Part shown: positions 18,287-37,678 of the stretch, piece after piece | Layout of the letters: each line of letters opens with the position of its first letter | Numbering within the stretch: position 1 is the first letter of the stretch | Source: Bacillota bacterium | Lineage (GTDB): Bacteria; Bacillota_I; Bacilli_A; RF39; UBA660 | Reading direction: 5' to 3' | DNA: 64,000 nt | NCBI GenBank assembly: GCA_015059485.1 | Contig: SVAH01000002.1 | Location: forward strand, 62,001-126,000 | Program-made: the position numbers and the translations under genes | The notes under the pieces: model-generated | Told to the model about the DNA's origin: nothing | Databases searched by the model: none | Seen by the model: the letters and a program-made list of their open reading frames with translations, nothing else

Positions 18287-18311
18287 AGAATATAGTATAA
18301 TCTATATTCTT
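18287..18311. terminator. Bidirectional hairpin, terminator of the XRE gene
   Basis: Arms are AAGAATATAG and CTATATTCTT. On the minus strand TTTTTATAT follows. The interval 18140-18323 shows nothing else that I can support except promoter-like AT-rich sequence. Confidence 0.7.
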
Positions 18312-18323
18312 AATAAAAGTATA

Positions 18324-18938: not shown

Positions 18939-19018
18939 GAACTTTTCTCCTTTCATGACTTAAATATACATTAAATCACTTATTAATTACACATACTGGT
19001 GGTTGAGTTTAATTATTA

Positions 19019-19450: not shown

Positions 19451-19498
19451 TTTTTCACCTTCTTAAATTAATTATCTAACTTATATTTATTTTACAAA

Positions 19499-19711
19499 CT
19501 ATTCATCAATTTTATTAACAAATTTTTTTATTAGTTTTGCTAATTCATTAGGCTTTTGTTCAATAATTTGTCTTATCTTATCATCTGATGGCATAGTTGT
19601 AATTGTTTCTAATCTTAATTCTTGCTTTCTTTTCTTTAACCATTTTAGATTTTCTTTAAATTCTTCAACTGTCCTAGCACCGCGTGATGACTCAATATAT
19701 ATTTTTGGCAT
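19499..19711 (-). CDS. 70-aa basic helical protein, possibly a 5'-truncated gene
   Basis: Rich in Lys/Glu and helical (VEEFKENLKWLKKRKQELRL, then DDKIRQIIEQKPNELAKLIKKFV). Family unknown. The ATG has no good ribosome-binding site. About 70 bp upstream an AGAGGTG site precedes a short frame starting ATGAATAAAAAG (plus about 19757) that stops at once. One added A there would give MNKKAIKGYKELKK before a second stop. A longer gene may therefore have decayed, or a small separate ORF may exist. Low certainty. Confidence 0.35.
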   Translation of the reverse strand: MPKIYIESSRGARTVEEFKENLKWLKKRKQELRLETITTMPSDDKIRQIIEQKPNELAKLIKKFVNKIDE

Positions 19712-19822
19712 ATTATTTTTTTAATTCTTTATACCCTTTTATCGCTTTTTATTCATTATAAACACCTCTACTATATTCATTATACCACATATTTTTTAAA
19801 TTAATTTTGTTCATAATATTAT

Positions 19823-19848
19823 TAAAAAAAGTTGAATTTCTCCAACTT
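19823..19848 (-). terminator. Intrinsic terminator of the ABC exporter operon
   Basis: An AAGTTG/CAACTT stem (19829-19834 with 19843-19848) is followed by TTTTTTT on the minus strand. Confidence 0.8.
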
Positions 19849-19871
19849 CTAATCTTAAATTTTTTAATTAA

Positions 19872-22238: not shown

Positions 22239-22239
22239 A

Positions 22240-22941
22240 TTACCACTTAACCTCATCTATGTTTTTTGGATGTTTATTAATAACACTTGCTTCTACCTTA
22301 CCATTTTTAATTTTAATAACTCTATCAGCTATATCAGCAATTAAAGCATTATGTGTAACAATAATAACAGTTGTATCATTATCACTAAGACTCTTCAAAA
22401 GTTTTAATACTTCAACACCTGTTTTAGAATCAAGTGCTCCAGTTGGTTCATCACAAAGTAATACTTTTGGATTTTTCATTATTGCCCTAGCAATTGAAAC
22501 TCTTTGCTGTTCTCCACCTGATAATTCTTGCGGAAATTTATCAGCATGTCTTAATAGTCCAACACTCTTTAAAACACTCGCTGAATCTTTAGATGTATTG
22601 GTAACATCTTTAATTAAATTAACATTTTCATCTACTGTTAGAGTAGGCATTATATTATAAAATTGGAATATAAATCCAACTTCATTAGCTCTATATCTAG
22701 TTAATTCTTTATCACTATATTTAGCTATATCGTTTTCACCAATCATAATTTTACCAGATGTTGCTTTATCCATTCCACCTAGTAGGTTAAGTAATGTAGA
22801 TTTACCTGCACCTGATGGTCCAAGTATAACTACAAACTCTCCTTGATTAATACTTAAATCTATTCCATCTAAAGCATTAAATTTTTGTTCACCTATAATG
22901 TATGTTTTTTTAACATTCTTTAGTTCAATAAAACTGTTCAT
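22240..22941 (-). CDS. ABC transporter ATP-binding protein, MacB/LolD-like
   Basis: 233 residues, complete. Walker A GPSGAGKSTLLNLLGG, Q-loop FQFYNIMP, signature LSGGEQQRVSIARAI, Walker B VLLCDEPTGALD and the H-loop VTHNA are all present. It powers the adjoining FtsX-type permease. The leader to the divergent regulator contains a strong promoter (TTGACT, 17 bp, TATAAT at 22981-22986 on the minus strand) with an operator just downstream, so expression is probably repressed until an inducer appears. Confidence 0.92.
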   Translation of the reverse strand: MNSFIELKNVKKTYIIGEQKFNALDGIDLSINQGEFVVILGPSGAGKSTLLNLLGGMDKATSGKIMIGENDIAKYSDKELTRYRANEVGFIFQFYNIMPTLTVDENVNLIKDVTNTSKDSASVLKSVGLLRHADKFPQELSGGEQQRVSIARAIMKNPKVLLCDEPTGALDSKTGVEVLKLLKSLSDNDTTVIIVTHNALIADIADRVIKIKNGKVEASVINKHPKNIDEVKW

Positions 22942-23744: not shown

Positions 23745-23991
23745 GTGAACAAAACGTGGACAATAAGCAATTTTTGATCAATTTTTATAAAAAGAAAAAC
23801 TCGCTTTTCCCTTATTTTATAAAGGTTTGCGAGTTACTTACCACAACATTGCTTATATTTTTTACCTGAGCCACATGGAATTTAATTACATATTTTTTGC
23901 TTTATTTTTCTCTTTTTATGCTTTAATTTTCATATAAATGACAATATTTTTCTCTTTTTATGAAAAAATAGGTATCTAAAAAGGTATCTAA
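23745..23991. repeat. Attachment-site-like module A (outermost): arm, secA-tail core, arm
   Basis: Right arm: GTGAACAA and GTGGACAA 11 bp apart (23745-23763). Core: 23834-23878, a truncated secA end encoding PCGSGKKYKQCCGK plus stop, in secA orientation. It is preceded in plus coordinates by a CTCGC/GCGAG terminator hairpin (23798-23835). Left arm: GGTATCTAA twice, 12 bp apart (23971-23991), 4 bp from the stop codon of the next gene. Gaps are 70 bp and 92 bp. No start codon or upstream secA sequence exists, so the core is not a gene. The interval 23706-23995 has no other content that I can support. Confidence 0.75.
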
Positions 23992-23995
23992 TTTT

Positions 23996-24739
23996 TTATT
24001 TAATTAGTTTTTCAAACGCATTAGCATTTAATATTGTGTTTGATACAAATTTTCCTTTATAGAAATTAGCCCAATTATTAAATACACATGGTGCATTTTT
24101 AGCTTTCTCTAATGAATCTATTTTTATAAAGTTTAATTTAATACCTTTATCTTTAGCATAATCAGATAACTCTTTAACTTCATATTCTACATATGGACAT
24201 TCATTAGAATAATAAATAGTGAAAACTTGACTATCAATTTCCATCTTTCTAGCACTATCACTAAACTTAGGTGTTTCTTTATCATCAAATTGTAATGCCA
24301 TTAATTCATAATCATTAATTGTATCTACTACCTTAAATCCATAATGTTCAAAGAATTTCTTATCCCCAATAAATGGTTTCTTCTTTTGAGATACCAATGT
24401 ACAAACACCACTCATTTTTTTCTTTTTAGCATCTTCAATAGCATATTCTAATAATTCTTTACCAATACCTTTTCCTTTAAAACTTCCAGCTACCCATAAA
24501 CAATATATATGCATATAGTTTTTACCAATAATAGGAACCCATGCTGTTTCTATTGGCTCATATTCAATAAAAATTTTACCTCTAGCATTTAGTTTTCTAA
24601 ATACATGTCCATCTTTTAATTTACTTTTAATCCATTCTTTCTTTTTATCTACACCATCTTGATGTTTAGGATCTCCAATTGCACAACAAATATGTTCTTC
24701 TTCAATATTCTTTTCATCTAAATTAATGTACTCATTCAT
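23996..24739 (-). CDS. GNAT acetyltransferase with YoaP-like thioredoxin-fold C-terminal domain
   Basis: 247 residues. The N-terminal GNAT domain has the acetyl-CoA loop FKGKGIGKELLEYAI (about 91-105) and HYGFKVVD. The C-terminal region from about 170 (FTIYYSNECPYVEYEV) resembles the YoaP-like thioredoxin-type domain, with a single Cys in SNECPY and another in APCVFNN. The acetylated substrate is unknown. ATG at 24739 lies just after a TATAAT box and GAGGAG. It is the first gene of the array, its stop 4 bp from the arm repeats. Confidence 0.8.
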   Translation of the reverse strand: MNEYINLDEKNIEEEHICCAIGDPKHQDGVDKKKEWIKSKLKDGHVFRKLNARGKIFIEYEPIETAWVPIIGKNYMHIYCLWVAGSFKGKGIGKELLEYAIEDAKKKKMSGVCTLVSQKKKPFIGDKKFFEHYGFKVVDTINDYELMALQFDDKETPKFSDSARKMEIDSQVFTIYYSNECPYVEYEVKELSDYAKDKGIKLNFIKIDSLEKAKNAPCVFNNWANFYKGKFVSNTILNANAFEKLIK

Positions 24740-24799
24740 TTTATCTACTCCTCACAATTATATTATATCACATTTCAAAGTCTTTCTTTTATCAAAAAA

Positions 24800-24828
24800 A
24801 GTGTAGATAGTGTTGTATTTTTTACAAT
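24800..24828. repeat. Relic arm-like segment between two cassette genes
   Basis: AGTGTAGATAGTGTTGTA followed by TTTTTTACAA closely matches the segment after the arm at 29388-29418 (AGTGTGGGTAGCGTTGTA, TTTTTACAA). No secA core is present here. I read it as a decayed cassette boundary between the YoaP-like gene and the HD gene; the downstream TTTTGCAAC also recurs at 31530-31545. Confidence 0.4.
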
Positions 24829-24865
24829 ATTTTGCAACTTTTATATAATAACTTATTTATGTCTT

Positions 24866-25408
24866 TTATTCAAAATATTCACTTACTATTTGATTATATC
24901 TTTCTAACAAATGGTTATTATTTATTCTTTTATTAAATAGTTTTTTTAATTCTAGATAATACCATTTTAATTCATCATAATTATTTGCTTCTGTGACAAG
25001 GAATTCTTTTCCACTTATTTTATACTGTTCATAATCCGAAATAAGATTTTGCAGCTTATCGGCAATTTCAACAACTATTATATTATCAGTAGTAGTTTCC
25101 AGCCTTTTAATAAATTCCTTTTTTCTATCAATATAGTTAGTTATATTTTGATCTTCGGTCAATTGTAAAACACCGTTCGCTATTTTTTTTCCATATTTTT
25201 CTAATATGTCTTCATATGTATATTTTGTATCCTCAATAACATCGTGTAAATATCCAATAAATATTGTTTCTTCATCACAGCCAATATTTTTTAACATATT
25301 TCCTACCATGATGCTATGAAAAGATAAATCAATATCTTCTTTTTTTCTTTTTAGTCCTAAAAATGCCTTAAAAACAAAATGAATAATATCCTCTTCTAAT
25401 TCATACAT
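24866..25408 (-). CDS. HD-domain phosphohydrolase (RelA/SpoT hydrolase-like, no synthetase domain)
   Basis: 180 residues. FHSIMVGNML (first His), GYLHDVIEDT (the HD pair, about residue 50) and a later ELADKL-like EIADKLQNL give the metal-binding pattern of the small ppGpp hydrolase/HD group. No nucleotidyltransferase domain follows, so it may hydrolyse a nucleotide alarmone or another phosphoester. A GAGGTGGATAG site precedes the ATG. Alone in its cassette. Confidence 0.75.
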   Translation of the reverse strand: MYELEEDIIHFVFKAFLGLKRKKEDIDLSFHSIMVGNMLKNIGCDEETIFIGYLHDVIEDTKYTYEDILEKYGKKIANGVLQLTEDQNITNYIDRKKEFIKRLETTTDNIIVVEIADKLQNLISDYEQYKISGKEFLVTEANNYDELKWYYLELKKLFNKRINNNHLLERYNQIVSEYFE

Positions 25409-25483
25409 TCCTATCCACCTCTATATTTATTATACCATAAAATTATCCTTATCTATGGGCAATGGTAAATTTAAACAATTTTA

Positions 25484-25743
25484 CTGTATCTAAAACAAAA
25501 AAATTGCAATAAATTGCAACTTTTCGTAATTTGTTGTTTTCACTAAAACCCTTATATTTATTGGATCAAATGACTATTTACCACAACATTGTTTATATTT
25601 TTTTCCACTGCCACATGGTAAAATATTAAAACAAACCAAGTAATTTTTTCCTTTTAAAGTGGCTTTTTTTATTTTAAATGTTGATTTTTTTATTGAATAT
25701 TTGTAAGTTTTTTTCGTAGAACGTATCTAAAAACGTATCTAAA
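25484..25743. repeat. Attachment-site-like module B
   Basis: Right arm: single CTGTATCTAAAAC (25484-25496). Core: 25574-25618, secA tail PCGSGKKYKQCCGK plus TAG stop. Left arm: ACGTATCTAAA twice, 12 bp apart (25721-25743), flush against the methyltransferase stop. Gaps are 77 bp and 102 bp. The right side from about 25450 is nearly the same as that of module G, including TTGCAATAAATTGCAACTT and CCCTTATATTTATTGG. No gene is seen in 25409-25743. Confidence 0.75.
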
Positions 25744-26379
25744 TTATTTCATTTTTCTAGCCTTAATTAGACTATAATCATCTTTATCAACATTACTTGA
25801 AGTTATTTCTTGAAAGCCAACCCTTTTTAATACTTCTATTTCATGTTCAACAGTAAGTGGTGTATCTATATGTCTGTGATTTTCTATATTGTTTTCTAGT
25901 TCATATAATTGACCATCTTCTATTTCTTTTGATAAAGCTATTTTGTCACAATTTATGAACTGACCATTTTCTTTTAAACATTCATATATTTTCTTATATA
26001 GTTTTATTTTTTCTTCTATTTTAAAGTGATGAAGAGCTGATGTAGATATAACTGCATCATAATTATATCCAAATTCTTCTTCAAAGAAATCGCCACATAT
26101 AGTAGTTACATGATCTGCAAAACTTCTTTTCTTTAACTCTTCAAGCATATTTTCGGTAATATCTATGACTGTTACTTCTACATTTGGAAATAATTCAAAT
26201 ACATGAATTAATTCTAGTCCTGTACCTGCACCTAAGTCTAATATTTTTTTAGTTTCTTTATCTAGGCTATCTCCTAATGTCTTTTTTGTTTCCATGTATG
26301 TACTATGTACATCATCATAAGAATCTATCTTTTCATTAAAGAATGTTCTTTGCTTTTGATTTCTTTCATATAAATTCAT
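25744..26379 (-). CDS. Class I SAM-dependent methyltransferase
   Basis: 211 residues. Motif I ILDLGAGTGLELIHVFE (about 42-58), motif II VTVIDITENML, and a motif near YDAVISTSALHHFK are standard for class I methyltransferases. The substrate is unknown. Two bp after the stop of the upstream TetR gene, so it is the target gene of that operon. Its own stop codon touches the arm repeats, giving no trailer. Confidence 0.85.
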   Translation of the reverse strand: MNLYERNQKQRTFFNEKIDSYDDVHSTYMETKKTLGDSLDKETKKILDLGAGTGLELIHVFELFPNVEVTVIDITENMLEELKKRSFADHVTTICGDFFEEEFGYNYDAVISTSALHHFKIEEKIKLYKKIYECLKENGQFINCDKIALSKEIEDGQLYELENNIENHRHIDTPLTVEHEIEVLKRVGFQEITSSNVDKDDYSLIKARKMK

Positions 26380-26381
26380 AA

Positions 26382-26936
26382 TTATATCCCCCTTAAATTT
26401 ATTTCTATATTATTTCTAATTAAGTCTTTAATTTCTTTATCTGTTAATTTAATACTATTTACACATAATTGTGTTGCTATACCATGAGTATAAAATCTTA
26501 CTTCACGATATATTTTTTTTGCATCTTCTAAAGATATTTTATATTGCTTTACCATCGCATTGATTGTTTCAAAGTTTCTATCAGTATTTAATACTTCTTC
26601 TACTGTTCTAGAACCAGCAAGATCAGCCATAAATAATGAAAAGAATACATTTGGTTCTTTCTTTGCATAAAAAGCATATGCATAACTTATAGTATATAAG
26701 TAATCTTTTATATCAACATATTTATATATAAAAGATGAATAGTCCTTTCTTAAATAAAATTTAAGATCTTCTTTATACTTATCAAAGTTAGCATAGTTTT
26801 TAAATATTGGTTGTGTTGAGCACCCTATATATTTTGCAAGTTCTCTAACTGTTAGATTAGAGTAACCTTTTTCCTTTATAAATTCAACACTCTTTTCCAA
26901 TATATCTTCTTTAGAAAACTTAATAGTTCTCGCCAT
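26382..26936 (-). CDS. TetR/AcrR-family regulator, autoregulated
   Basis: 184 residues. N-terminal HTH: SNLTVRELAKYIGCSTQPIF then KNYANFDKYK. The rest is the helical ligand-binding half. ATG at 26936 is 6 nt after GAGGTG; a GTG three codons upstream is inside the site. The promoter upstream lies between two perfect operators (26959-27033), so it very likely represses itself and the methyltransferase. One cassette therefore carries a complete regulated module. Confidence 0.85.
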   Translation of the reverse strand: MARTIKFSKEDILEKSVEFIKEKGYSNLTVRELAKYIGCSTQPIFKNYANFDKYKEDLKFYLRKDYSSFIYKYVDIKDYLYTISYAYAFYAKKEPNVFFSLFMADLAGSRTVEEVLNTDRNFETINAMVKQYKISLEDAKKIYREVRFYTHGIATQLCVNSIKLTDKEIKDLIRNNIEINLRGI

Positions 26937-26958
26937 AAACATCACCTCACAAATGTAT

Positions 26959-27033
26959 AAAATAACATTTGTTATTTTATACTATACACCGCTTTTTGGC
27001 ATTTGTCAACATAAAAATAACATTTGTTATTTT
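26959..27033. promoter_or_regulatory. Promoter flanked by two identical 20-bp TetR-type operators
   Basis: AAAATAACA-TT-TGTTATTTT occurs at 26959-26978 and again, identical, at 27014-27033 (55 bp apart). On the minus strand TTGACA (plus 27004-27009), 17 bp and TATAGT sit between them. Repressor bound at both sites would block this promoter. Confidence 0.85.
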
Positions 27034-27069
27034 ATTTTTGATGATTTAATATGTTTTTTAAGAAAAAAA

Positions 27070-27340
27070 ACGTATCTAAAACGTATCTAAAGTGCTTTTT
27101 TTGATAAAAATTACTCAAAATGTGGAACAAATAAAAATCTCGCAATCCCTTTATTCATAAGGGAAAACGAGATTATTTGCCATGACATTGTTTATATTTG
27201 CGTCCTGAGCCACATGGCACACTACACTCACTTCTGACTCGTTAAAATGCTTTAAATTTATCTTAATACTCTTTAATATCATTTAAAATATAATTAAAAC
27301 TCATTAACTTTTTCTAAAGTGTGGGTAAAGTAGTGGGTAA
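27070..27340. repeat. Attachment-site-like module C, with a divergent secA tail
   Basis: Right arm: ACGTATCTAAA twice, 11 bp apart (27070-27091). Core: 27173-27217, reads PCGSGRKYKQCHGK plus TAA, so it has Arg and His where the local secA has Lys and Cys. Terminator hairpin AATCTCG/CGAGATT at 27136-27174. Left arm: GTGTGGGTA-type repeat, 12 bp period (27319-27340), ending 2 bp before the next gene's stop. Gaps are 81 bp and 101 bp. The interval 27034-27342 carries no other gene. Confidence 0.75.
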
Positions 27341-27342
27341 TT

Positions 27343-28101
27343 TTACTTTATTATGCGTGATTCTTTTTTTGTATTACAAAGTGAAATATTATTATCTTTT
27401 GCACACCAAATCTTGCCATTGTTTTCACAGTAAAACTCTAAATTACCATTTGTTGATTTAATAAGACTAACATCAGTAAGCCCATCTTCTCTTAAATAAT
27501 CTTGTAACAAATAATAATCTCCATATTGGTTAGCTACTTTAATTAAATCTTCTTTCTTATAAGTTTCATCTCCAACAACTAATATATTAGGATATTCTTC
27601 CTCATCTGTGTTATTATGTGGATAAATTGAAATTCCGTCCAAATTTAATCCTTCTTCAATATGGAAGTCTGGATATTCTTCACTACATGGTGTAATTATA
27701 ATATACTTTGACATTAACATTGCACCTGCACTAAAGCCTAACATTACTCCATCATATTTTTTCATAACTTCTAATAATCCTAATTTTTCACACATTTCTT
27801 TTTGTTTAAATGGATCACCACCCATTAACATAACAAAACTAGCTTTGCTAACTATTTGTTGTGCTTCTTCTGGTGACATCTCAGGTGTAATTATTGTACT
27901 TATTTCAAATTCTATTCCAATATTTTTAAAATGCTCAGTAAATGCTGGAACATATTTATCTTTGGCTTTTTGAATTTTTTCTGGACTTCCAGGAATATAT
28001 ACTATGCTTTTTTTATCTTTTAATTCACTTAAGAACATATCGCCTAACCCATGTCCAAAAGCATTATTAATATCAAATCCACTACAATAATATCTTGTCA
28101 T
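27343..28101 (-). CDS. Peptidase S51 (dipeptidase E)-like protein
   Basis: 252 residues, flavodoxin-like fold. The nucleophile elbow GFSAGAM (Ser about 124), MGGDPFKQK and YPHNN near 170 match the S51 family, which cuts Asp-X dipeptides, cyanophycin fragments or related gamma-linked substrates. Whether Asp specificity holds cannot be seen. Its leader contains TATAGGAGTTGATA, shared with three other cassette genes. The stop codon lies 2 bp from module C's left arm. Confidence 0.8.
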   Translation of the reverse strand: MTRYYCSGFDINNAFGHGLGDMFLSELKDKKSIVYIPGSPEKIQKAKDKYVPAFTEHFKNIGIEFEISTIITPEMSPEEAQQIVSKASFVMLMGGDPFKQKEMCEKLGLLEVMKKYDGVMLGFSAGAMLMSKYIIITPCSEEYPDFHIEEGLNLDGISIYPHNNTDEEEYPNILVVGDETYKKEDLIKVANQYGDYYLLQDYLREDGLTDVSLIKSTNGNLEFYCENNGKIWCAKDNNISLCNTKKESRIIK

Positions 28102-28221
28102 ATTATCAACTCCTATAAATATTATACCATGTTTTTTTCTATAAACTTTTATTAAAACGATTAATATTCTATTTTTTCTTTATTTATAATAGGTTTAAAG
28201 CACTTTGCCTAAAACTCCAAT

Positions 28222-28242
28222 GTGTGGGTAAAAGTGTGGGTA
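28222..28242. repeat. Arm-like direct repeat without secA core (boundary D)
   Basis: GTGTGGGTA twice, 12 bp apart, 3 bp before the stop of the HExxH gene. The same repeat is at 27319-27340 and 29379-29398. No SEC-C tail or hairpin occurs between 28102 and 28245, so this looks like a cassette end whose core has been lost. Confidence 0.6.
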
Positions 28243-28245
28243 TTT

Positions 28246-29259
28246 TTACTTTTTTATTCCTGTCCCTGGAGCACTCATTTCATCACCAACTATTTGTGAT
28301 GCTAGAGACCTTGTTTCACTTTTTAATAAATATTTTGAAAATGATCTGCAATCAGCATTAGCATCTAGTAAACATAAAAAGTATTTTCTATCTATATCAT
28401 CTAATACATCAAATTGCTTTTTTAAGGAAAGCTTTGCTCCTTTTCTTGGGTATATTTCATATTCATTTTCTGTTTCATTACCACTCAAAACAACCTCTTT
28501 ATCAGGATTATCCTTATAAGCTATTAAATCAACGCAATAAACATAATCTAATCTAAATAAAAAATCTTCAAATTCATATGGGAAATTATAAGTCTTTTTT
28601 GCTTCTTCATATACTTGTTTTAATTTGTTTATACCAGCATTATCTTCATATAAATAGTTAATAGCAACGAAGAAGTCTTTAGGAACATTTAACATAATGG
28701 ACAATTTACTTAATATAGAATCATACATTTCATAATTATGAAGTGCAGATGTTATAACTCCTCCATTTAACATTCTTAATTTGTCTGAGGGAATTTCTTT
28801 TTCCTCAAAAGTTACATTATATATTTCTTCATATACTTTCTCAGCAAAATATTGCGTTTGAGCTTCCATTATCATTCTTCCAATATTTGACTCTTGATTG
28901 ATACCAACTTCATCATTTATTGGATTTGTTTGTACTGCATGATGCAATTCATGATAAACTGTTATTTCCCTTAATGGTTCTCCTAAATCTTTTCTTACAT
29001 ATATTATTTTACTTTTTGGTTCTCTTAATCCTTTACAATCAGGGCCCAGTTCTTTATAAATTTCACTATTTTGATCATAAAATTCAATTTTCGAAGCATA
29101 TAATAAGGCATTATCAATTAATTTTTCTATATTATTAGCACCTAGTATTTGTTGATTCTTTAATAGCACACAAAAATAATTTGTAAAATACTCTAATGTA
29201 GTGTTATCTATATTAGATTTTTTACTATATATATAATTTTTAATTTCTTCTCTGTTCAT
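28246..29259 (-). CDS. HExxH-motif protein, possible zinc metallopeptidase
   Basis: 337 residues, no signal peptide. VYHELHHAVQ (about residue 110) has the HExxH zinc-binding core; NIGRMIMEAQTQYFAEKVYEE some 25 residues on could supply a Glu ligand. The rest is helical and unfamiliar. Of two adjacent ATGs, the second (29259) has the same 8-nt spacing from AGGAG as the other genes that share this leader. It resembles the 1478-2626 protein in plan but not obviously in sequence. Activity is inferred from the motif. Confidence 0.55.
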   Translation of the reverse strand: MNREEIKNYIYSKKSNIDNTTLEYFTNYFCVLLKNQQILGANNIEKLIDNALLYASKIEFYDQNSEIYKELGPDCKGLREPKSKIIYVRKDLGEPLREITVYHELHHAVQTNPINDEVGINQESNIGRMIMEAQTQYFAEKVYEEIYNVTFEEKEIPSDKLRMLNGGVITSALHNYEMYDSILSKLSIMLNVPKDFFVAINYLYEDNAGINKLKQVYEEAKKTYNFPYEFEDFLFRLDYVYCVDLIAYKDNPDKEVVLSGNETENEYEIYPRKGAKLSLKKQFDVLDDIDRKYFLCLLDANADCRSFSKYLLKSETRSLASQIVGDEMSAPGTGIKK

Positions 29260-29378
29260 CATATCAACTCCTATATTAATTATATCATAATTTTTAGAAA
29301 TAATTTTAGCAAAGCAATAATTATTAATTAGATTCTTTGATTATGAGCATTTTTCTATAATTAAATGAAAATCAACAT

Positions 29379-29398
29379 GTGTGGGTAAAGTGTGGGTA
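29379..29398. repeat. Arm-like direct repeat without secA core (boundary E)
   Basis: GTGTGGGTA twice, 11 bp apart, followed by TTGTAATTTTTACAA, a small hairpin before the GH10 stop. No SEC-C tail in 29263-29378. Confidence 0.6.
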
Positions 29399-29432
29399 GC
29401 GTTGTAATTTTTACAACTTTTTAAGTAATTCT

Positions 29433-31082
29433 TTATCTATGCTTATGAGAAGGCTCAGTACTTTCATAATTTTGTGCTTCCGCTTGACTAAATTCTTGCT
29501 TTTTAATTAATTTTTTATGCGTTGGGAATAAACCTCCACAAGCAGTTGGAATTTGATGAATATCAGTGATACTTCCATCTGACCTTACTCTTTCTAAATT
29601 ACAATCAATACCATCGGTTAATGACCAATATGATATACCATCTAGATGTACTCCCGATTCATTAATAACGCTTGATATTTCTCCAATTTTTTGATGTTTA
29701 TATTCATAAACTTGTTCTAGAGTTACTTCAGGATTATTTCCAAATACTCTAGGTATTTGAGTTCTTCCTAGTGACATATCAAATTCAGTAATTTGTATAT
29801 GTTTTCCTGTTCTTTCTTGCAAAGTTCTAAAGTCTTCAAAGCATCGTCTAATTTTATTTTCATCTTCACCAATTGTTATATGCATTTGTGAACCTAATGT
29901 ATCAATTAAACCAGGTCGTTTAGAATCAATTTTTCCTAATACCTCTAGCACTTTTTTTCTTCTTTCGTCATTTTCTAAAAACGGTTCATTATACAGAAAG
30001 TTTACTCCTTCAGGTTTGTTTTTACGTGCATAATCAAATGCTGATAATAGTTCATCCATAGTTATACCATATTTATTTTCCCAAATATTTTTATATTCAG
30101 GAATTTCTCCAGGATATAAATCTCTATATAACTCTTTGTTTTCATCCAAAACTACTTTATATTTACCTGCTTTATTCTTTTTATATGAACACCACTTTTT
30201 TGTAGTATCATCATATATCATCGGATCAAAACTTACAATTTCATTAAATAAATCAACTGCATTAATAACTGGCTCTTCCTTACCATTTATTTTAACTTTA
30301 TGATTTGAATTATATTTATTTATAAAATCAATACTTTTTTTAACATAATCTTTTATTATTTCTAACATTTCTTCTTTAGATTTCCCTGCAAATAAATTAT
30401 CCATTCCATCTTTAACTAATAATGAATGATATCTAACTTGTTTTCCATTCCTATATGCAAAATCCAAATCTCTTTCAGCAAAATAAAAATCAAATCTTTT
30501 ATCTGGATTACTTTTATCATATAAATCATTTACTACATTATATATTCTTCCAGAACCTATTAACATACTATTGAAACTTCCTAAATTATTATTTAATAGC
30601 ACCATTTCTTCATATAAGTCTTCAGATTTAAGTTGATCTCTTTCTGTGGATACAAAATGATGGCTCATATCAAATATTTCTTCATAATTGTTTGGGTATT
30701 TATTTTTAATAAATTCTCTTAACCATGACATAATTTCTGGTGAATTATTTGATATTGCATTTTTAATTATTTCTATATCGTTTTCTTGAATTCCACAATG
30801 TCTAAGCTTATTATCTATATTAACTTTTTTATCTGCATCATGAAGTACCATAGTATCTTGATAACTTTTAAATACCAATCCCTTAAAATCATCTAATGGC
30901 ATGGTAATCATTTTTTCCAAATCTTCTTTACTATAATTATGTTTTATTTGATCACAATGAATAATAAAATCAATTAATTCATTATTATCCTTACATTGTA
31001 TTATAGATAACAAGTCTATTTGTTCTGCACTAAAATATCCCCCAACTATATTTGTATTAACTTGTAAATTGTTTACATCCAT
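29433..31082 (-). CDS. GH10 endo-beta-1,4-xylanase-like protein, cytoplasmic
   Basis: 549 residues. An unfamiliar helical N-terminal region (about 1-130) precedes a GH10-like barrel. SHHFVSTERDQLK, the acid/base region DLFNEIV, the substrate strand GSQMHITIG, the nucleophile region ITEFDMSL and SYWSLTDG are in family order. GH10 enzymes cut xylan-type beta-1,4 links. There is no signal peptide, so it probably acts on imported oligosaccharides or has another role. An enzyme of this size is unusual cargo for a small cassette. It has its own promoter (TATAAT before AGGAGAAGATA). Confidence 0.75.
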   Translation of the reverse strand: MDVNNLQVNTNIVGGYFSAEQIDLLSIIQCKDNNELIDFIIHCDQIKHNYSKEDLEKMITMPLDDFKGLVFKSYQDTMVLHDADKKVNIDNKLRHCGIQENDIEIIKNAISNNSPEIMSWLREFIKNKYPNNYEEIFDMSHHFVSTERDQLKSEDLYEEMVLLNNNLGSFNSMLIGSGRIYNVVNDLYDKSNPDKRFDFYFAERDLDFAYRNGKQVRYHSLLVKDGMDNLFAGKSKEEMLEIIKDYVKKSIDFINKYNSNHKVKINGKEEPVINAVDLFNEIVSFDPMIYDDTTKKWCSYKKNKAGKYKVVLDENKELYRDLYPGEIPEYKNIWENKYGITMDELLSAFDYARKNKPEGVNFLYNEPFLENDERRKKVLEVLGKIDSKRPGLIDTLGSQMHITIGEDENKIRRCFEDFRTLQERTGKHIQITEFDMSLGRTQIPRVFGNNPEVTLEQVYEYKHQKIGEISSVINESGVHLDGISYWSLTDGIDCNLERVRSDGSITDIHQIPTACGGLFPTHKKLIKKQEFSQAEAQNYESTEPSHKHR

Positions 31083-31251
31083 AACTATCTTCTCCTATTT
31101 ATATTATACCATCAAATATCAAATATTTATTTTAAATTTACTTAATGAAATTATAAAATTCTAATTTTAGATACGTTTTGTATTTAATTTGAAAACTATA
31201 TTTCAATATGCATTTTAGCCTTATTTTATAAGATTTTACAAAGTTTTTATA

Positions 31252-31516
31252 ACGTATCTAAAACGTATCTAAGACAATGGACACTCCAAAAATTACCCAA
31301 AAAGTGGAATCATAGAAAAACCCGCAATCCCTTATTTTATGTGGGTTCGCGGGCTTATTTACCACAACACTGCTTATATTTTTTACCACTGCCACATGGA
31401 TAAAAAATTTGCTCTGTTTAGCTCCACTTGGCTTCACAAAAGCCTTATTTTTCTTGCTGTTTTTCATTTGGCTTCACGCTATTTCACTCGGCTTCTATGG
31501 TAAACTGTATCTAAAA
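31252..31516. repeat. Attachment-site-like module F
   Basis: Right arm: ACGTATCTAA twice, 11 bp apart (31252-31272). Core: 31355-31399, PCGSGKKYKQCCGK plus TAA. Hairpin CCCGC/GCGGG at 31320-31354. Left arm: single CTGTATCTAAAA (31505-31516). Gaps are 82 and 105 bp. Between core and left arm are three GGCTTC-centred repeats (31428-31437, 31468-31477, 31488-31497), the first two identical. The interval 31083-31553 has no coding sequence that I trust. Confidence 0.75.
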
Positions 31517-31553
31517 TTAGGTTGTTGCAATTTTTTGCAACTTTTATATACTC

Positions 31554-32681
31554 CTATTTTTTTAATATTTCCTGTTTTGGTTTCATCATTTGATAATGGA
31601 ATTGTGTTTCTCCATTTGGTACAAAACCTAACCTAGCATATAGTGATCCAACTGGATTTTGTTTGAAATATTGAATTTCAATATCTCTATCTTTGTTTTC
31701 TTCTAATTTATCTTTTAGTAACTTTGTTCCAATGCCTTTTCCTTGATATTCAGGAATAATACAAATATTTCCAATTTCATAATTACCATTCTCTAAAACT
31801 TCTCCATTATAGAATCCTATTTTTTGGTCTCCATTCATAATTATAAATGCATTAGGTTTAACAGTAGTTATAAATTTTTCAAAGTAATTTCTTTGATCTT
31901 CTTCTATCCATGCTCCCCAACATTCTTCTACATATTTTTTATATGCATTTTTCTTTACTTCATATACATATTCATAATCTTCATCTTCATACGGAACTAA
32001 TTGTATTGTATCTACCATTTTTATTCCTCCATTTTCAAATTCATAATAAGGTCTTTCTCCAAAAATATTTATCTCATTTTCAGTTATATAAATAGTATCT
32101 TGTTCAGGTAATGCTATTACTGTTTCATTAGTACTTGAGTATTTTATTAAATAATCAGTATATTTTTTATGTATTTCTTCTGTTTTTGAATTAGTATAAT
32201 GTGCAAAAACAGACTTCCCATTTAATTTATCAAATCCTTTTGTATCAATAAGATTAACATCATTTCTATCCATAGCTAAGCAACTATTTATATCATATCC
32301 AAATATAATTGCTCCAGCACTACATCCAATTACTATGCCACCATTGTCTAAATATTCATTTATTTTTTCAAAAATACCATTATCTTTGATCCCTTTTAAT
32401 AATTTGTATGTATTTCCACCACCTATGAAAATTGCAGAATAATTATTAAAATCAAATGATGCAAATTGTTCGAATGTTCTTGGCATATCAACACCTACTA
32501 CATCTACATTAGTTATTTGCTTTTGGAACCATTCATAGCATCCATCATACGGATGATCAGTTTCATCCATAGCTAGTGGAACATATAATATTGGTTTATT
32601 ATGATCCATTGCTTCATTTACTTTACTCATGGTCAAAGCTAATTCTTTTGTACTTCCTCCACCATTTAAGAATAATTTCAT
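31554..32681 (-). CDS. Peptidase S51-like protein fused to a GNAT acetyltransferase
   Basis: 375 residues. The N-terminal part (1-215) is S51-like: LFLNGGGST, IFIGGGNTYKLL and the nucleophile elbow GCSAGAIIFG (Ser about 117). The C-terminal part (about 230-370) is GNAT: IGNICIIPEYQGKGIGTKLL with the acetyl-CoA loop QGKGIG, and LYARLGFVPNGE. A single chain carrying both could cut and then acetylate a small gamma-peptide or amino-acid conjugate. The fusion reads through without a stop and has one leader. It shares TATAGGAGTTGATA with three other cassette genes. Confidence 0.8.
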   Translation of the reverse strand: MKLFLNGGGSTKELALTMSKVNEAMDHNKPILYVPLAMDETDHPYDGCYEWFQKQITNVDVVGVDMPRTFEQFASFDFNNYSAIFIGGGNTYKLLKGIKDNGIFEKINEYLDNGGIVIGCSAGAIIFGYDINSCLAMDRNDVNLIDTKGFDKLNGKSVFAHYTNSKTEEIHKKYTDYLIKYSSTNETVIALPEQDTIYITENEINIFGERPYYEFENGGIKMVDTIQLVPYEDEDYEYVYEVKKNAYKKYVEECWGAWIEEDQRNYFEKFITTVKPNAFIIMNGDQKIGFYNGEVLENGNYEIGNICIIPEYQGKGIGTKLLKDKLEENKDRDIEIQYFKQNPVGSLYARLGFVPNGETQFHYQMMKPKQEILKK

Positions 32682-32756
32682 AGTATCAACTCCTATAGTT
32701 ATTATATCATAAAATGCACCTTATCTGTGTGGCAATGGTAAATTTAGACGTTTTTA

Positions 32757-33024
32757 CTGTATCTAAACTGTATCTAAAACAAAAAAATTGCAATAAATTG
32801 CAACTTTCTTGAAATCATGAAATCTTCTAAAACCCTTATATTTATTGGCTTAAATAACTATTTACCACAACATTGTTTATATTTTTTGCCACTGCCACAT
32901 GGACTGAGTGATACTATTTTCTAGCAATAACTTGCGAATAAGTTGTAATCAATGCTAATAATTTGTAAGTTTTTCAACAAATTTCTTAAAAAATCTCTCA
33001 GAAGTTATCTAAAAAGGTATCTAA
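32757..33024. repeat. Attachment-site-like module G
   Basis: Right arm: CTGTATCTAAA twice, 11 bp apart (32757-32778). Core: 32858-32902, PCGSGKKYKQCCGK plus TAG. Left arm: GTTATCTAAA and GGTATCTAAA, 12 bp apart (33004-33024). Gaps are 79 and 101 bp. The right side matches module B over about 170 bp with few changes. Nothing else is seen in 32682-33064. Confidence 0.75.
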
Positions 33025-33064
33025 AATACTTTTTTAATGATTTTTAGAATTTTTTTGTAAGTTC

Positions 33065-33568
33065 TTATATTTTTTCAAAATAATATACATTCTCAGGTAA
33101 TTGTAATTTTTCAAACATTCTCTGTTTTATATATTTACCACCAATATGTTCATAAAATTCATTTGATGGATTTCCTACTAAACATCCTATGACCATTTTA
33201 TCAAAATTCATTTCTTTTAATTCGTTAATACCTGCTTCTATTAATTTTTTTCCAAATCCATATCCTTTGTATCCGTTAATAATATATACCGCATGTATTT
33301 CACCGCAATTATCATAATCAGTTTCATCTGTTGATCCAACATTTATAAATCCTACTAATTTATCATCAACTTCTAAAACATATTGGTGATTTTCTTTTTC
33401 ATCAAATTTGTTATAAGAGTTCTTAGCCCTTTCTTCTTCATTATTATATAAATTATCTAAAAATTCATCAGGCACAATTCCCCTATATGTTTCATTCCAA
33501 GCAACAGTAACAACATGAGCTACATCTGCACAATCTCTTCTTTCTTTTTTTCTTATTTTATAGTCCAT
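33065..33568 (-). CDS. GNAT-family N-acetyltransferase
   Basis: 167 residues. IRKKERRDCADVAHVVTVAWNETY at the N terminus (split by the family's first helix), VLEVDDKLVGFINVG, and the acetyl-CoA loop GYKGYGFGKKLIEAG, then NEFYEHIGGKYI. It would transfer acetyl to an unknown amine. Two bp separate it from the next GNAT gene upstream, so both form a two-gene operon within one cassette. Start follows a weak AAGGTTAAATAATT-type site. Confidence 0.85.
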   Translation of the reverse strand: MDYKIRKKERRDCADVAHVVTVAWNETYRGIVPDEFLDNLYNNEEERAKNSYNKFDEKENHQYVLEVDDKLVGFINVGSTDETDYDNCGEIHAVYIINGYKGYGFGKKLIEAGINELKEMNFDKMVIGCLVGNPSNEFYEHIGGKYIKQRMFEKLQLPENVYYFEKI

Positions 33569-33570
33569 AA

Positions 33571-34161
33571 TTATTTAACCTTTCCATTTGAAACATATGG
33601 CTCATATATTTCTTTATATTTTTCAAGTGCATTTTTTACATCAATATTATAATCTACAACCATACATTTTTCATCTTCATTATAATATTCTTTTACTCTT
33701 ACTCCACCTAAGGCTTCCATGGTTTTCCAAGATGCAGGATTATCTAAATCAGCATCCATAAATACCGTTTCAATTCCATATTCATCGCATACTTTTAAAC
33801 CTAAATATAGGTTTACTTTATTATATCCTTTTCCTCTTTCAGTTGGGCGAATGCCATAACCAATATGACCACCAAATTTACTTAATCTTTCATTTAAAGC
33901 AGTTCTAATATTAATCATTCCCACAATTCGATGATCACTTTCTCTTACTAAGAAATATGTTCTAGCAGGAACTCTTTCTTCACTTGGTGTCATGGTATAA
34001 TCTTTTTCTAATTTATCTAGCCATCCTTCATAATTATCAAGATATCTATGTAATCCACCTGATCCATTAATATCAGATTTATATTCATAATGCTCATTAA
34101 TATACTCGATTGCTTCGTTTTTTCTTTCTATCGATGGTATTTCAAAATATAATTTTTCCAT
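33571..34161 (-). CDS. GNAT-family N-acetyltransferase
   Basis: 196 residues from the ATG at 34161, which has AGGAG 8 nt before it; a longer in-frame start reads through the promoter and is rejected. GHIGYGIRPTERGKGYNKVNL holds the acetyl-CoA loop (RPTERGKGY), followed by DNPASWKTMEALGGVR, typical of YitI/acetyltransferase-4-like GNATs. Promoter TATAAT and the shared TATAGGAGTTGATA leader are directly upstream. Operon with the next GNAT gene. Confidence 0.85.
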   Translation of the reverse strand: MEKLYFEIPSIERKNEAIEYINEHYEYKSDINGSGGLHRYLDNYEGWLDKLEKDYTMTPSEERVPARTYFLVRESDHRIVGMINIRTALNERLSKFGGHIGYGIRPTERGKGYNKVNLYLGLKVCDEYGIETVFMDADLDNPASWKTMEALGGVRVKEYYNEDEKCMVVDYNIDVKNALEKYKEIYEPYVSNGKVK

Positions 34162-34221
34162 ATTATCAACTCCTATATTAATTATATCATACTTATTAGT
34201 TTTCAAAAACACCTGTGAAAA

Positions 34222-34530
34222 GGTATCTAAAAGGTATCTAAAGTGAATTTTTGGTGATTTTTCGCAATTTTTTAGCAAAGAAAAAACTCGCGTTTTCCCT
34301 TATTTTATGCGGGTTTGCGAGTTTATTTTCCACAACACTGCTTATATTTCTTTCCCGATCCACATGTTCATGAACTTTTGGTATATATAGTATTATCGTT
34401 ACTATCGTTATTATTGTTATTTCAATAAAAAAGTGGTTTGGTAACATTTAGTACATATAGTATTTATAGTACTATTGTAACTATTGTTATTTATATTCTG
34501 CAAACATTTTGCAAACATTGTTTGCAAAAC
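34222..34530. repeat. Attachment-site-like module H
   Basis: Right arm: GGTATCTAAA twice, 11 bp apart (34222-34242). Core: 34323-34367, TCGSGKKYKQCCGK plus TAA; the first codon is Thr rather than Pro. Hairpin AACTCGC/GCGAGTT at 34285-34324. Left arm: GCAAACATT twice, 11 bp apart, plus an inverted GTTTGC (34500-34530), touching the cupin stop. Gaps are 80 and 132 bp. The long gap contains two imperfect copies of a 40-bp sequence rich in TATAGTAT and TATTGTTATTT (34382-34423, 34452-34494). No gene seen in 34162-34529. Confidence 0.75.
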
Positions 34531-35006
34531 TATTTTTCCCCATCGTAATAATCTACTTGACTATTTTCTTTATAAAATGAACTAGATATATTGTGTTCTA
34601 TTATGCCAATTTTTCCAGAGTCAACATATTTAATAATATCTGGGGAGTTAGTTGTGTCAAAATCTATATATGTTAGTTTTTCATTCTTCGAAGTATTTGT
34701 TATCTTATGAGTTCCCCCTTCTCCACATGGAAAAACAATTATATCACCACTAGTAACCTTTAATTTTTCATCATTAGTCTCAACTTCACCAGAACCACTA
34801 ATAATGTAAAAACATTCGGTATTATATTTATGATAGTGTTTTGGATAGGCACTTTTTAAAGGTGCTAACTCATAAAAGCATACATAACACTGACTAAAAT
34901 CTTTTCTTTTAGTAACTTCATATTTTGTATAATCATATTTGTCTAATCCTGTTTTCCTTTTTCCTTCTATTTTGGAAATGTTTGTAAGAACAATCTTATT
35001 ATTCAT
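34530..35006 (-). CDS. Cupin-domain protein
   Basis: 158 residues, single cupin. Motif 1 PKHYHKYNTECFYIISGSG (His, His and Glu metal-type ligands) and motif 2 GDIIVFPCGEGGTHKI. Likely a metal-dependent sugar or small-molecule enzyme, or a binding protein; the substrate is unclear. ATG at 35006 follows GAGGTG. This is the cassette next to secA and so, on the insertion model, the most recent arrival. Confidence 0.8.
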   Translation of the reverse strand: MNNKIVLTNISKIEGKRKTGLDKYDYTKYEVTKRKDFSQCYVCFYELAPLKSAYPKHYHKYNTECFYIISGSGEVETNDEKLKVTSGDIIVFPCGEGGTHKITNTSKNEKLTYIDFDTTNSPDIIKYVDSGKIGIIEHNISSSFYKENSQVDYYDGEK

Positions 35007-35100
35007 ATACACCTCTTATACTACAATTTAGTTCATTCAATAATCAAAAATTGTTTGCAAGAATAATTACCTTTATTTATAAGGGTTTATAGCCTTTTTT

Positions 35101-35245
35101 GCAAACATTTTCATTTTTTTGCAAACAAAATGAAAACATTTTTGGTTTTTTTTATATTTTTTTGAAATTTTCAAATCCTCGCAAGCCCTTATTTTATATG
35201 CTATTTACCACAACATTGTTTGTATTTTTTACCACTGCCACATGG
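35101..35245. repeat. secA-proximal attachment-site-like end (module I)
   Basis: GCAAAC copies at 35101 and 35121 (20 bp apart) lie 74 bp from the stop of the intact secA. The intact tail (35201-35245, PCGSGKKYKQCCGK) is continuous with the full gene. The GCAAAC arm matches the left arm of module H, so both ends of the cupin cassette carry the same repeat. Confidence 0.65.
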
Positions 35246-37678
35246 ACATTGATCATTTCTACCTACTTTTTTATCTTTTTTAATAGGTTCTTTCTTTTGT
35301 TTTTCTCCTTCTTTAATTGTTTGTTTTCTTTCAACGTTAGCTTCAATAGAGGCTTTAAGAAGGAACTGAGCTATATTAGAATTAATATTATCAAGTAAGT
35401 CTTGGAATAATTCGTATCCTTCAATTGTATATGCTTGAAGTGGATTAATTTGCCCATATCCTCTTAACATAATAGCTTCTTTCAATTGTTCCATTGCTGT
35501 AATATGATCTACCCATAGATTATCAATAATTCTTAAAGATATAGCTTTTTCAAATTCATCAAATCTTGGAGCATCTTTAATTTTTTCATTGTAATCATCA
35601 GTTAATAATTTATATAGATGTTCAATTAAATCTTCATCATTTAAATCTTTAACATCTTCTGTATCTAAGTTATGTTTCTTTAAATAATTTGAATTAACAT
35701 ATTCAACTATTTCACTCTTATCATCTTCAGTAATATATCCCTCTGGTTCAATATGAGCAGCTACTAAACCTTCAATAGCTTCTTTAAATGTTTCAAGTAC
35801 TCTATCATGAATATTTTCTTCATCTAATATTTCATTTCTTCTTGTATAAATGATATCTCTTTGTTGATTCATTACATTATCATAATCAAGTAAGCTCTTA
35901 CGCATATCAAAGTTATTTCCTTCAACTTTCTTTTGAGCTGTTTCAATACTTCTTGTTAATGCTTTTGATCTAATTGATTGATCATCAGTAATACCTAAAG
36001 CTTCAATCATATTTTTAACTTTATCTGTACCAAATCTTCTCATTAAATCATCTTCAAATGATACAAAGAATTGTGACATACCAACATCACCTTGACGACC
36101 AGAACGTCCACGTAACTGATTATCAATACGACGAGATTCATGTCTTTCTGTACCAATTACACATAAACCACCAAGTTCTACTACTCCATCACCTAATTTG
36201 ATATCTGTTCCACGTCCAGCCATATTAGTTGCTATTGTAATAGCACCTTTTTCACCAGCTTTAGCAACTATCTCTGCTTCTCTTTCATGGTTCTTAGCAT
36301 TTAATACTTCATGTTTTAATCCTGCTTTTGTAAGCATTTTAGATAATCTTTCATTATTTTCAACAGATATAGTACCAACTAATATTGGTTGTCCTGTTTC
36401 ATGAACTTTCTCTATATATTTAACTATTGCTTTATATTTACCAGCTTCATTTGAATAAACTAAATCTGGATAATCAATTCTAGCAATTGGTCTATTAGTT
36501 GGAATGCAAATAACATACATGTTATAAATATTCCTAAATTCTTCTTCTTCTGTTTTAGCTGTACCTGTCATACCAGATAGTTTATTGTACATTCTAAATA
36601 AGTTTTGGAACGTAATAGTAGCCATTGTTTTAGTTTCAGCATTAATCTTAACACCTTCTTTAGCTTCAAGTGCTTGGTGTAATCCTTCACTAAATTGTCT
36701 ACCATGCATTAAACGTCCAGTAAATTGATCTACAATAACAACTTCTCCATTTTCAACAACATAATCTACATCTTTATGGAATCCATAATTAGCTTTTAAT
36801 GCATTATTTAAATGATGTACCAATGCTTGATTATTAATGTCATATAAATTAGGTATATGCATTATTTTTTCTATTTTTTTACTTCCTTCTTCTGTTAAAG
36901 AAACATTTTTAGTTTTTTCATCAATAGTATAATCTTCTTCATTAGTTAGTTTTAGCACTGCACTATTTGCTTCAGTATATAAATTTTTAGAATTAACTTC
37001 TCCTCCAGAAATAATAAGTGGAGTTCGTGCTTCATCTATTAAAATAGAGTCTACTTCATCGACAATACAGAAGTTAAGTGGTCTTTGAACTCTATCTTCA
37101 GCTCTTGCAACCATATTATCTCTTAAATAATCAAATCCAATTTCATTATTTGTAGAATAAAGTACATCACAATTATAAGCTTCTTGTTTTGCTTGTGGAG
37201 ACATTTCTCTTAAGTTAACACCAACTGTTAACCCTAAAAATCTAAATATTTCTCCCATCCAATTAGCATCACGTTGTGCCAAGAATTCATTAACTGTAAC
37301 GATATGAACTCCCTTACCAGTTAATGCATTTAAATATGTTGGCATTGTTTCTGTTAAAGTTTTACCTTCACCAGTTTTCATTTCAGCTATATTACCATAA
37401 TGAATTGCAAGACCACCAACTACTTGAACAAAGTATGGTTTTTCACCAATAACACGGTATGCTGCTTCTCTTACAGTTGCAAATGCTTCAATAACTATTT
37501 CTTCTAAATTATTATCATTTTCTTCTAGTATCTTTTTAAATTTATCAGTTTTAGCTGCAAGTTCTTCATCGGATAACTTACTCATTTCATCATCTAAAGC
37601 TAAAACTTCTGTAGCCATTTTTTCAAACCTTTTTAATTCTTTATATTCTGAGTCTATTAGTTTTCTAAATAATCCCAT
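35201..37678 (-). CDS. secA: Protein translocase ATPase SecA
   Basis: 825 residues, full length. Walker A MKTGEGKTLT, DEVDSILID, the GTAKTEEEEF region, RGRSGRQGDVG and the C-terminal SEC-C zinc finger CPCGSGKKYKQCCG are present. SecA drives protein export through SecYEG at the membrane. The last 15 codons are the target sequence repeated six more times downstream. The product stays intact because each inserted copy would restore the same tail. Start follows GGAGATG. Confidence 0.97.
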   Translation of the reverse strand: MGLFRKLIDSEYKELKRFEKMATEVLALDDEMSKLSDEELAAKTDKFKKILEENDNNLEEIVIEAFATVREAAYRVIGEKPYFVQVVGGLAIHYGNIAEMKTGEGKTLTETMPTYLNALTGKGVHIVTVNEFLAQRDANWMGEIFRFLGLTVGVNLREMSPQAKQEAYNCDVLYSTNNEIGFDYLRDNMVARAEDRVQRPLNFCIVDEVDSILIDEARTPLIISGGEVNSKNLYTEANSAVLKLTNEEDYTIDEKTKNVSLTEEGSKKIEKIMHIPNLYDINNQALVHHLNNALKANYGFHKDVDYVVENGEVVIVDQFTGRLMHGRQFSEGLHQALEAKEGVKINAETKTMATITFQNLFRMYNKLSGMTGTAKTEEEEFRNIYNMYVICIPTNRPIARIDYPDLVYSNEAGKYKAIVKYIEKVHETGQPILVGTISVENNERLSKMLTKAGLKHEVLNAKNHEREAEIVAKAGEKGAITIATNMAGRGTDIKLGDGVVELGGLCVIGTERHESRRIDNQLRGRSGRQGDVGMSQFFVSFEDDLMRRFGTDKVKNMIEALGITDDQSIRSKALTRSIETAQKKVEGNNFDMRKSLLDYDNVMNQQRDIIYTRRNEILDEENIHDRVLETFKEAIEGLVAAHIEPEGYITEDDKSEIVEYVNSNYLKKHNLDTEDVKDLNDEDLIEHLYKLLTDDYNEKIKDAPRFDEFEKAISLRIIDNLWVDHITAMEQLKEAIMLRGYGQINPLQAYTIEGYELFQDLLDNINSNIAQFLLKASIEANVERKQTIKEGEKQKKEPIKKDKKVGRNDQCPCGSGKKYKQCCGK

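Follow-up and report, generated by a model that had tools for sequence, protein, structure and literature searches.

In this study, we analysed a 64,000-nucleotide stretch of a Bacillota genome (GCA_015059485.1, contig SVAH01000002.1, positions 62,001 to 126,000; hereafter the window), in which the 3' end of the essential gene secA is followed by a row of small gene cassettes, each bounded by a copy of the secA tail. Very probably, this array arose by accretion of integrase-less cassettes at a phage-type attachment site in the secA 3' end, the cassettes being moved in trans by phages and mobilizable elements that target secA. This reading draws on several lines of sequence evidence, namely the repeated tails, the pairing and geometry of arm-like repeats, integrase-bearing elements that share both site and arms with the cassettes, secA ends without an insert, sharing of cassettes between genera and the position of the crossover.

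The end of secA is present in seven copies of 45 bp (14 codons and the stop), one fused to secA and six displaced, and the displaced copies stop at the positions given in a preliminary description of this DNA. All seven cores encode the peptide CGSG(K/R)KYKQC(C/H)GK-stop, preceded by P, or by T in the copy that begins at 34367. As had been described, homology of the displaced cores to secA starts at CATGTGG, and secA sequence is absent upstream of all six. The 11 assigned cassette genes (23996-35012) lie in one orientation, that of secA, which also agrees with the earlier account. A degenerate core pattern had 7 matches in the genome of the window, a 1.4-Mb assembly that is 74% complete, and a control pattern read backwards had none across 291 genomes of the same family. 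When up to 15 mismatches of 43 were allowed, a search for extra cores at 14.0-23.9 kb of the window returned only the known core. Among 92 displaced cores, variation falls mainly on the third codon position (0.466, versus 0.111 and 0.083 at the other two), as in 34 cores joined to secA; this is expected if each displaced core once served as the end of secA.

Short tandem repeat pairs adjoin nearly every core of the window. Around the core of a phage attachment site (attP), as known from work on lambda and Tn916, arm-type sites are expected in a layout that resembles these pairs. Read in the orientation of secA, a pair with an 11-bp period begins about 125 bp into the cassette, and a pair with a 12-bp period stops about 125 bp ahead of the next core; the two pairs of cassette 2 (34218-34240 and 33003-33024) exemplify both periods. 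Most window cassettes carry arms of the TTAGATA type. Cassette 1 has pairs of different sequence and geometry, and intervals 3 and 6 have a single repeat at one end each. Across the family, TTAGAT arms stand at both ends of 42 of 78 inter-core intervals. The three bases that follow TTAGAT are equal at the two ends in 34 of these 42 (shuffles: mean 13.4, maximum 24, with 0 of 20,000 reaching 34), and are equal across a core in only 2 of 16 cases. This test covered the 42 intervals, the other 36 having no TTAGAT arms at both sides; locus L087 was omitted as it overlaps L086, so that the interval adjoining secA in genome G097 is uncounted. A cruder test on 6-mers gave 41 of 60 matching intervals (shuffled mean 20.7, maximum 28) and 9 of 25 across a core. 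We prefer the suffix test, because the common TTAGAT stem inflates the 6-mer null. The preliminary description had seen no attC-like site; arm-type repeats do exist, and they are diagnostic, being alike within a cassette and unlike across a core.

The site of exchange was mapped by comparing cores that resemble each other on one side only. For 59 pairs alike upstream, the excess of identity over a matched background was 0.49 upstream, 0.23 at core positions -2 to 5 and -0.02 at 6-18; for 105 pairs alike downstream, it was 0.03 upstream, 0.07 at -2 to 5, 0.19 at 6-18 and 0.43 past the core. Since the excess changes sides between positions -2 and 5, strand exchange most likely takes place within about 7 bp (CATGTGG) at the 5' edge of the core. 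From such a crossover it would follow, most likely, that every insertion supplies the last ~13 codons of secA anew, together with the stop and the region downstream of it. In a first map with random pairs as background, the upstream-alike pairs rose again above background at positions 25-42, a rise that mostly disappeared once the background was matched for the same cores (excess 0.02 at 19-33 and 0.09 at 34-43). The matched control thus strengthened the crossover claim. The 62 nt after the core also fold more stably than mononucleotide shuffles, one for each (median -11.0 vs -5.85 kcal/mol; 97 of 124 vs 61 of 124 below -6). In the window, a strong hairpin follows only some cores.

Empty sites and shared cassettes indicate turnover at this position. 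The gene prfB comes directly after secA in the family genome G026 and in 8 genomes from other families within the class, and it lies past the inserts in G006, G015, G144, G167, G197 and others. Cassette 5 is 93.7% identical over 1451 bp to a cassette directly at secA in G236, a genome of another genus; the match ends at the right arms, and the secA genes are 73.3% identical. The GNAT-YoaP part of interval 6 recurs with 86-93% identity in seven loci of relatives and with 79% in an eighth. Both ends of cassette 2 are ~90-93% identical to the ends of cassettes in G307 and G238, and the cargo is unlike at the DNA level. The left flank of cassette 1 resembles the flank beside the integrase of an element in G229 (80%, 149 bp), and its right flank the end of an integrase-bearing element in G191 (89%, 160 bp). 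Among the 30 most similar secA pairs, drawn from 72 distinct secA ends, 23 had no detectable shared sequence in the next 855 bp, four of these having just 201-448 bp for comparison; the remaining seven share downstream sequence, and one of them is an outgroup pair without cassettes. The preliminary description had proposed repeated site-specific insertion at the secA 3' end with restoration of the tail. This proposal is supported by the empty secA-prfB sites, by differing arrays in other genera, by shared cassettes at different positions and by a crossover at the 5' edge of the core.

The search of related genomes for the 45-bp core, suggested earlier as a check, revealed arrays with other cassettes next to secA in other genera. 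The degenerate pattern matched at least once in 234 of the 291 family genomes and at least twice in 93 (counted by hand), where the second match may be another SEC-C protein in some genomes. Up to eight cores were found on one contig (G039 and G097), with five in G183 and four in G305 and G307. The window genome and its relatives are metagenome-assembled genomes, and absences are therefore weak evidence. The 42 intervals with TTAGAT arms at both ends (class II) have a median length of 1.5 kb (761-3768 bp), and 61 of their 62 open reading frames (ORFs) that reach 100 aa share the orientation of secA. By blastp, none of these ORFs matched either integrase type described below, all matches falling in the other 36 intervals. 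Neither a relaxase nor a phage structural family was among the best 25 of 64 Pfam families for the 62 ORFs.

Elements with an integrase gene of their own are also inserted at the secA site. Some are temperate prophages, whose arms are of the TTAGATA type, and others, with different arms, appear to be integrative mobilizable elements. Class II arms adjoin a distinct integrase gene of 376-387 aa, directed toward secA, in G141 and G115. In G141, TTAGATACC arms stand next to the integrase at secA, and the contig stops within the element. In G115, TTAGATAAG arms belong to a prophage with S24-type repressor, terminase, portal and head protease. Class I elements have arms of the TTGTGCACA, TTGTCCACA and TGTTTGTAA types and a 430-aa integrase (weak Arm-DNA-bind_4, SAM_3, Phage_integrase). 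Those of the G034 and G009 type add an HTH_17 gene, which is excisionase-like, and a Mob_Pre relaxase, and because of these two genes they look like integrative mobilizable elements. In all ten split class I integrases examined (L110, L111, L112, L114, L092, L101, L078, L083, L207 and L037), the break lies between the core-binding and catalytic halves, and the C-terminal half is in the -1 frame, at an A-rich run. A programmed frameshift, or else slippage during transcription, may be conserved at this point and limit how much full-length enzyme is made.

All 98 stretches retrieved in a scan of viral contigs were analysed, and TTAGAT arms accompany the core in five, which come from four contigs. 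The 40,114-bp contig IMGVR_UViG_3300028833_003330 shows the cassette layout at both prophage ends. One end (L261) has the secA core, a TTAGATACC pair with 11-bp period at +127, the integrase and an S24-type repressor; the other (L244) has tail and endolysin-type genes, a TTAGATACC pair with 12-bp period at -129 and the core. Viral contig L273 combines TTAGATACG arms with its own integrase. The L261 integrase (376 aa) was modelled with a mean pLDDT of 84 and a pTM of 0.52; at its N-terminus, the model has a unit of three strands followed by a helix. Among PDB structures, the model matches the Tn1549 integrase best, of which the solved part starts at residue 82, so that the N-terminal unit lies outside this comparison. 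Because Pfam finds the catalytic domain alone in class II integrases, arm binding by their N-terminus is something that we infer. In three phage stretches (L237, L268 and L279), a single core has the arm repeat GTACGCA on both sides and adjoins an integrase gene of 583-588 aa in class I-like geometry, the layout expected of a free attP; the L237 integrase has Arm-DNA-bind_4, SAM_3 and Phage_integrase domains. Targeting of the SEC-C core thus also occurs outside class II phages. Most remaining viral stretches look like unrelated SEC-C proteins. Genes at other sites, where no secA core is present, also have arm pairs in the TTAGATAC/TTATCTAC style, or related integrases, beside them (L118, L149, L167, L155, L156 and L153), for example downstream of recG (L149, L167) and yebC (L155). 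The cassette habit may therefore extend beyond secA.

Taken together, the cassettes are built, and would be moved, as follows. At the left end come the secA tail codons, the stop, often a hairpin, and tandem arms with an 11-bp period; the middle consists of one or two genes oriented like secA, and the right end has tandem arms with a 12-bp period, after which ~125 bp remain before another core starts. A tyrosine integrase that binds the arms and is provided in trans would turn the cassette into a circle and join it to secA by recombination between their two cores. Cassettes with TTAGATA arms would be served by integrases of secA-targeting temperate phages, and those with arms of the TTTGCAAA or TTGTxxACA type by integrases of secA-targeting integrative mobilizable elements. 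Each insertion would give secA a new tail and downstream region and push older cassettes away. From the sequences we infer that the integrase N-terminus binds the arms, that cassettes are excised as circles, act as substrates in trans and are transferred in phage particles or by mobilization, and that the host may benefit. It is tempting to go further and to regard the system as a phage-served analogue of an integron. Widespread minimal cassettes would then mimic the attachment site used by temperate phages and mobilizable elements that target secA, the arms would act as an address code choosing the helper integrase, and passing phages would load and reshuffle the arrays. To this extended view we give an even chance.

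Several observations weigh against movement in trans by such helpers. No class I or class II integrase was found in the 74%-complete window assembly beyond a 29%-identity match to an integrase linked to hsdS. The assembly has three PF00589 matches (two Xer-like, and this integrase adjoining an hsdS-like gene), none of them on the contig of the window, and a resident integrase as the mover was therefore rejected. Likewise, G162 (arms TACATACG and TTAGATCA) and G012 carry cassettes, and the only tyrosine recombinases found there are Xer-like (two and one, respectively), so the helper is not resident in these genomes. The likeness between cassette ends and phage ends is mostly confined to the arm region (~25-110 bp), and descent of class II cassettes from these particular phages is not claimed. 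Neither circular cassettes nor strain-level gain or loss was seen among the compared genomes, which number one per species. Two of the six window intervals have mismatched ends, and one cargo, TetR-methyltransferase, occurs with TTAGATACG arms (L321) and with TTAGATAAG arms (L324); ends and cargo are thus also exchanged by other recombination. A 282-aa recombinase beside a core in G039 (L051) was considered as helper and is probably not one, since an IS91-type transposase (Zn_Tnp_IS91, Y2_Tnp) comes next. At this locus (G039:C14), the transposase gene and the tyrosine recombinase adjoin a secA-type core with TTAGATACG arms.

Some of these points would suit a history of decay, in which phages and mobilizable elements integrated at secA shrank until only their ends were left; the cassettes would be what remains of them and would not be moved in trans. 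This is the published origin of cis-mobilizable elements (CIMEs), as far as the cited part of the source goes (PMC5704250), and it would accommodate the composite look of intervals 4 and 6 and the missing helper in the assembly that carries the array. Decay sits poorly with class II intervals that are small and almost uniformly oriented, with the lack of phage structural families among those listed, with near-identical cassettes at other positions in other genera and with like ends around unlike cargo, and we regard it as unlikely. Homologous recombination is another candidate: repeated cores and flanks would let cells exchange whatever genes lie between secA and prfB, in the manner known from minimal mobile elements. 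The cargo with two arm types fits this, and conserved end modules of 150-180 bp could act as homology; it leaves unexplained the matching asymmetric arms at both ends, the ~7-bp crossover and the same-arm integrases at the same site. As the main process it is thus highly improbable, and it is probably a second one. That XerC/XerD moves the cassettes, as an unusual Xer-type or integron-like system, might be suggested by the Xer-like recombinases of G162 and G012 and by the integron-like layout. Against it, dif and attC sites are not known to have arm repeats on either side, the core here codes for the end of SecA, and there are phages that target secA and carry the same arms together with an integrase of their own; there is hardly any likelihood left for this idea. 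Most likely, the enzyme that moves the cassettes comes from phages and mobilizable elements that target secA.

The features of the array are compiled in Table 1. Because the arms differ between the two ends of intervals 31354-27218 and 25573-23879, and the former also has internal pairs, both look composite; interval 4 probably represents fused cassettes. A leader resembling TATAAT...AGGAG is common to six places in the window (repeat family D2). Past the last core, a TetR/ABC-transporter block (window 18300-22941) is 81% identical over 3.9 kb to a block within a class I element at secA in G009 (L042). Because of this resemblance, mobile DNA probably extends to the left of the last recognisable core.

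Table 1. Coordinates of secA, its repeated 3' tail and the cassettes between the copies (window positions).
Feature	Position	Strand	Content and repeats
secA	35201..37678	-	Anchor gene, 825 aa, SecA by NCBIfam; tail ends CPCGSGKKYKQCCGK
Core copy 1	35201..35245	-	Fused to secA; true secA end
Cassette 1	34368..35200	-	Cupin-domain gene 34530-35012; class I repeats (TTTGCAAA type) at ~35097-35130 (wider spacing) and 34500-34529
Core copy 2	34323..34367	-	Displaced
Cassette 2	32903..34322	-	GNAT acetyltransferases 33571-34278 and 33065-33568; arms TTAGATACC x2 at 34218-34240, TTAGATACC/TTAGATAAC at 33003-33024
Core copy 3	32858..32902	-	Displaced
Cassette 3	31400..32857	-	Peptidase_S51 + GNAT fusion 31554-32681; arms TTAGATACAG x2 at 32757-32777, single at 31505-31514
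Core copy 4	31355..31399	-	Displaced
Interval 4, composite	27218..31354	-	GH10-like 29433-31082; 338 aa without family 28246-29262; Peptidase_S51 27343-28101; arms TTAGATACG x2 at 31252-31272; TACCCACAC-type pairs at 29380-29400, 28221-28241 and 27318-27340
Core copy 5	27173..27217	-	Displaced
Cassette 5	25619..27172	-	TetR-like 26382-26945 (slightly below Pfam cut-off); methyltransferase 25744-26379; arms TTAGATACG x2 at 27070-27090 and 25721-25742
Core copy 6	25574..25618	-	Displaced
Interval 6, composite	23879..25573	-	HD-domain gene 24866-25408; GNAT-YoaP gene 23996-24739; arms TTAGATACAG at 25484-25493, TTAGATACC x2 at 23970-23991
Core copy 7	23834..23878	-	Displaced; final recognisable boundary

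Of the 11 cargo genes of the window, four have GNAT domains, which are fused to an S51 peptidase in one and to YoaP in another; the others are a cupin, a second S51 peptidase, TetR-like, methyltransferase, HD-domain and GH10-like genes and one gene without family. GNAT is also the commonest cargo of the class II intervals, with 9 of 62 ORFs. A shared defence function was considered and rejected, and no common function is claimed. PADLOC gave one methyltransferase-type match for the window cassettes, and for the 62 ORFs the matches among the best 25 of 90 families were scattered, including a retron-type reverse transcriptase and a type I specificity subunit, found once each, and WYL and mad2/mad3 types, found twice each. 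The same methyltransferase as in the window is present on seven named metagenomic contigs titled uncultured Bacillota, Bacilli, Bacillales, Lactobacillales or Erysipelotrichaceae, whose isolate names point to gut or rumen habitats.

Parallels to known systems are evident. Phage satellites (phage-inducible chromosomal islands, PICI; P4-like; PICI-like elements, PLE) depend on phages and carry their own integrase and control genes. The secA cassettes would share the dependence on phages; unlike satellites, they consist of ends and cargo only, an integrase of their own being absent. The preliminary description knew of no described system of this kind, which was too strong, as CIME accretion, the Dehalococcoides ssrA islands and the staphylococcal cassette chromosome (SCC) and psi-SCC islands are arrangements of the same kind. 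CIMEs are bounded by attachment (att) sites, are devoid of integration genes and stack in tandem at one target-gene end with integrative and conjugative elements, integrative mobilizable elements and prophages, and are generally decayed elements, according to the cited part of the review (PMC5704250). The class II intervals likewise contain no integration or transfer genes (no integrase match, no relaxase among the Pfam families listed), and the window cassettes have att bounds in common with integrase-bearing elements at the same site. Compared with the CIMEs in that part of the source, the secA array differs in its long rows of one- to two-gene cassettes, its several arm types, its relatives among both phages and mobilizable elements and its anchor secA (PMC5704250). 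The Dehalococcoides islands form a tandem row behind a single-copy gene that is essential, each island with a repeat of the gene's 3' end as its boundary, and 15 have no integration module; unlike the secA array, they use the serine recombinase DsiB and a tmRNA gene, and the cited sections describe no arm-repeat code (PMC3146451). In SCC and psi-SCC at rlmH (orfX), direct repeats also encode the terminal amino acids of the target and a pseudo-SCC region is without ccr; as far as the cited sections go, SCC differs in its 15-bp repeats, ccr recombinases, few larger elements and site, rlmH instead of secA (PMC4723332). Integrons and clusters of attC sites lacking integrases (CALINs), in the excerpt cited, are rows of small gene cassettes as well (PMC11389934). 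In contrast, the secA array has coding secA tails with phage-type arms as boundaries, and no integron integrase gene was found next to it, the three PF00589 matches of the assembly all being on other contigs. No secA-anchored cassette array was found in the searched literature, which covers few of the subscription journals. As far as this search shows, the long rows of one- to two-gene cassettes at secA, the arm-repeat code common to temperate phages and mobilizable elements, and the tail swap are new.

Integrons are the textbook route by which single genes are stockpiled, and they rely on a dedicated integrase. Many species of one uncultured gut-type Bacilli family appear to store small cassettes at a protein-coding gene that is essential, using phage-type sites and no resident enzyme. 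It is implied that the zinc-finger tail of SecA is replaced at each insertion. If the proposed reading is true, the match between arm repeat and integrase N-terminal domain would be directly testable. The arrays would then show how minimal a mobile cassette can be, and they would tie temperate phages to gene-by-gene genome change in these bacteria.

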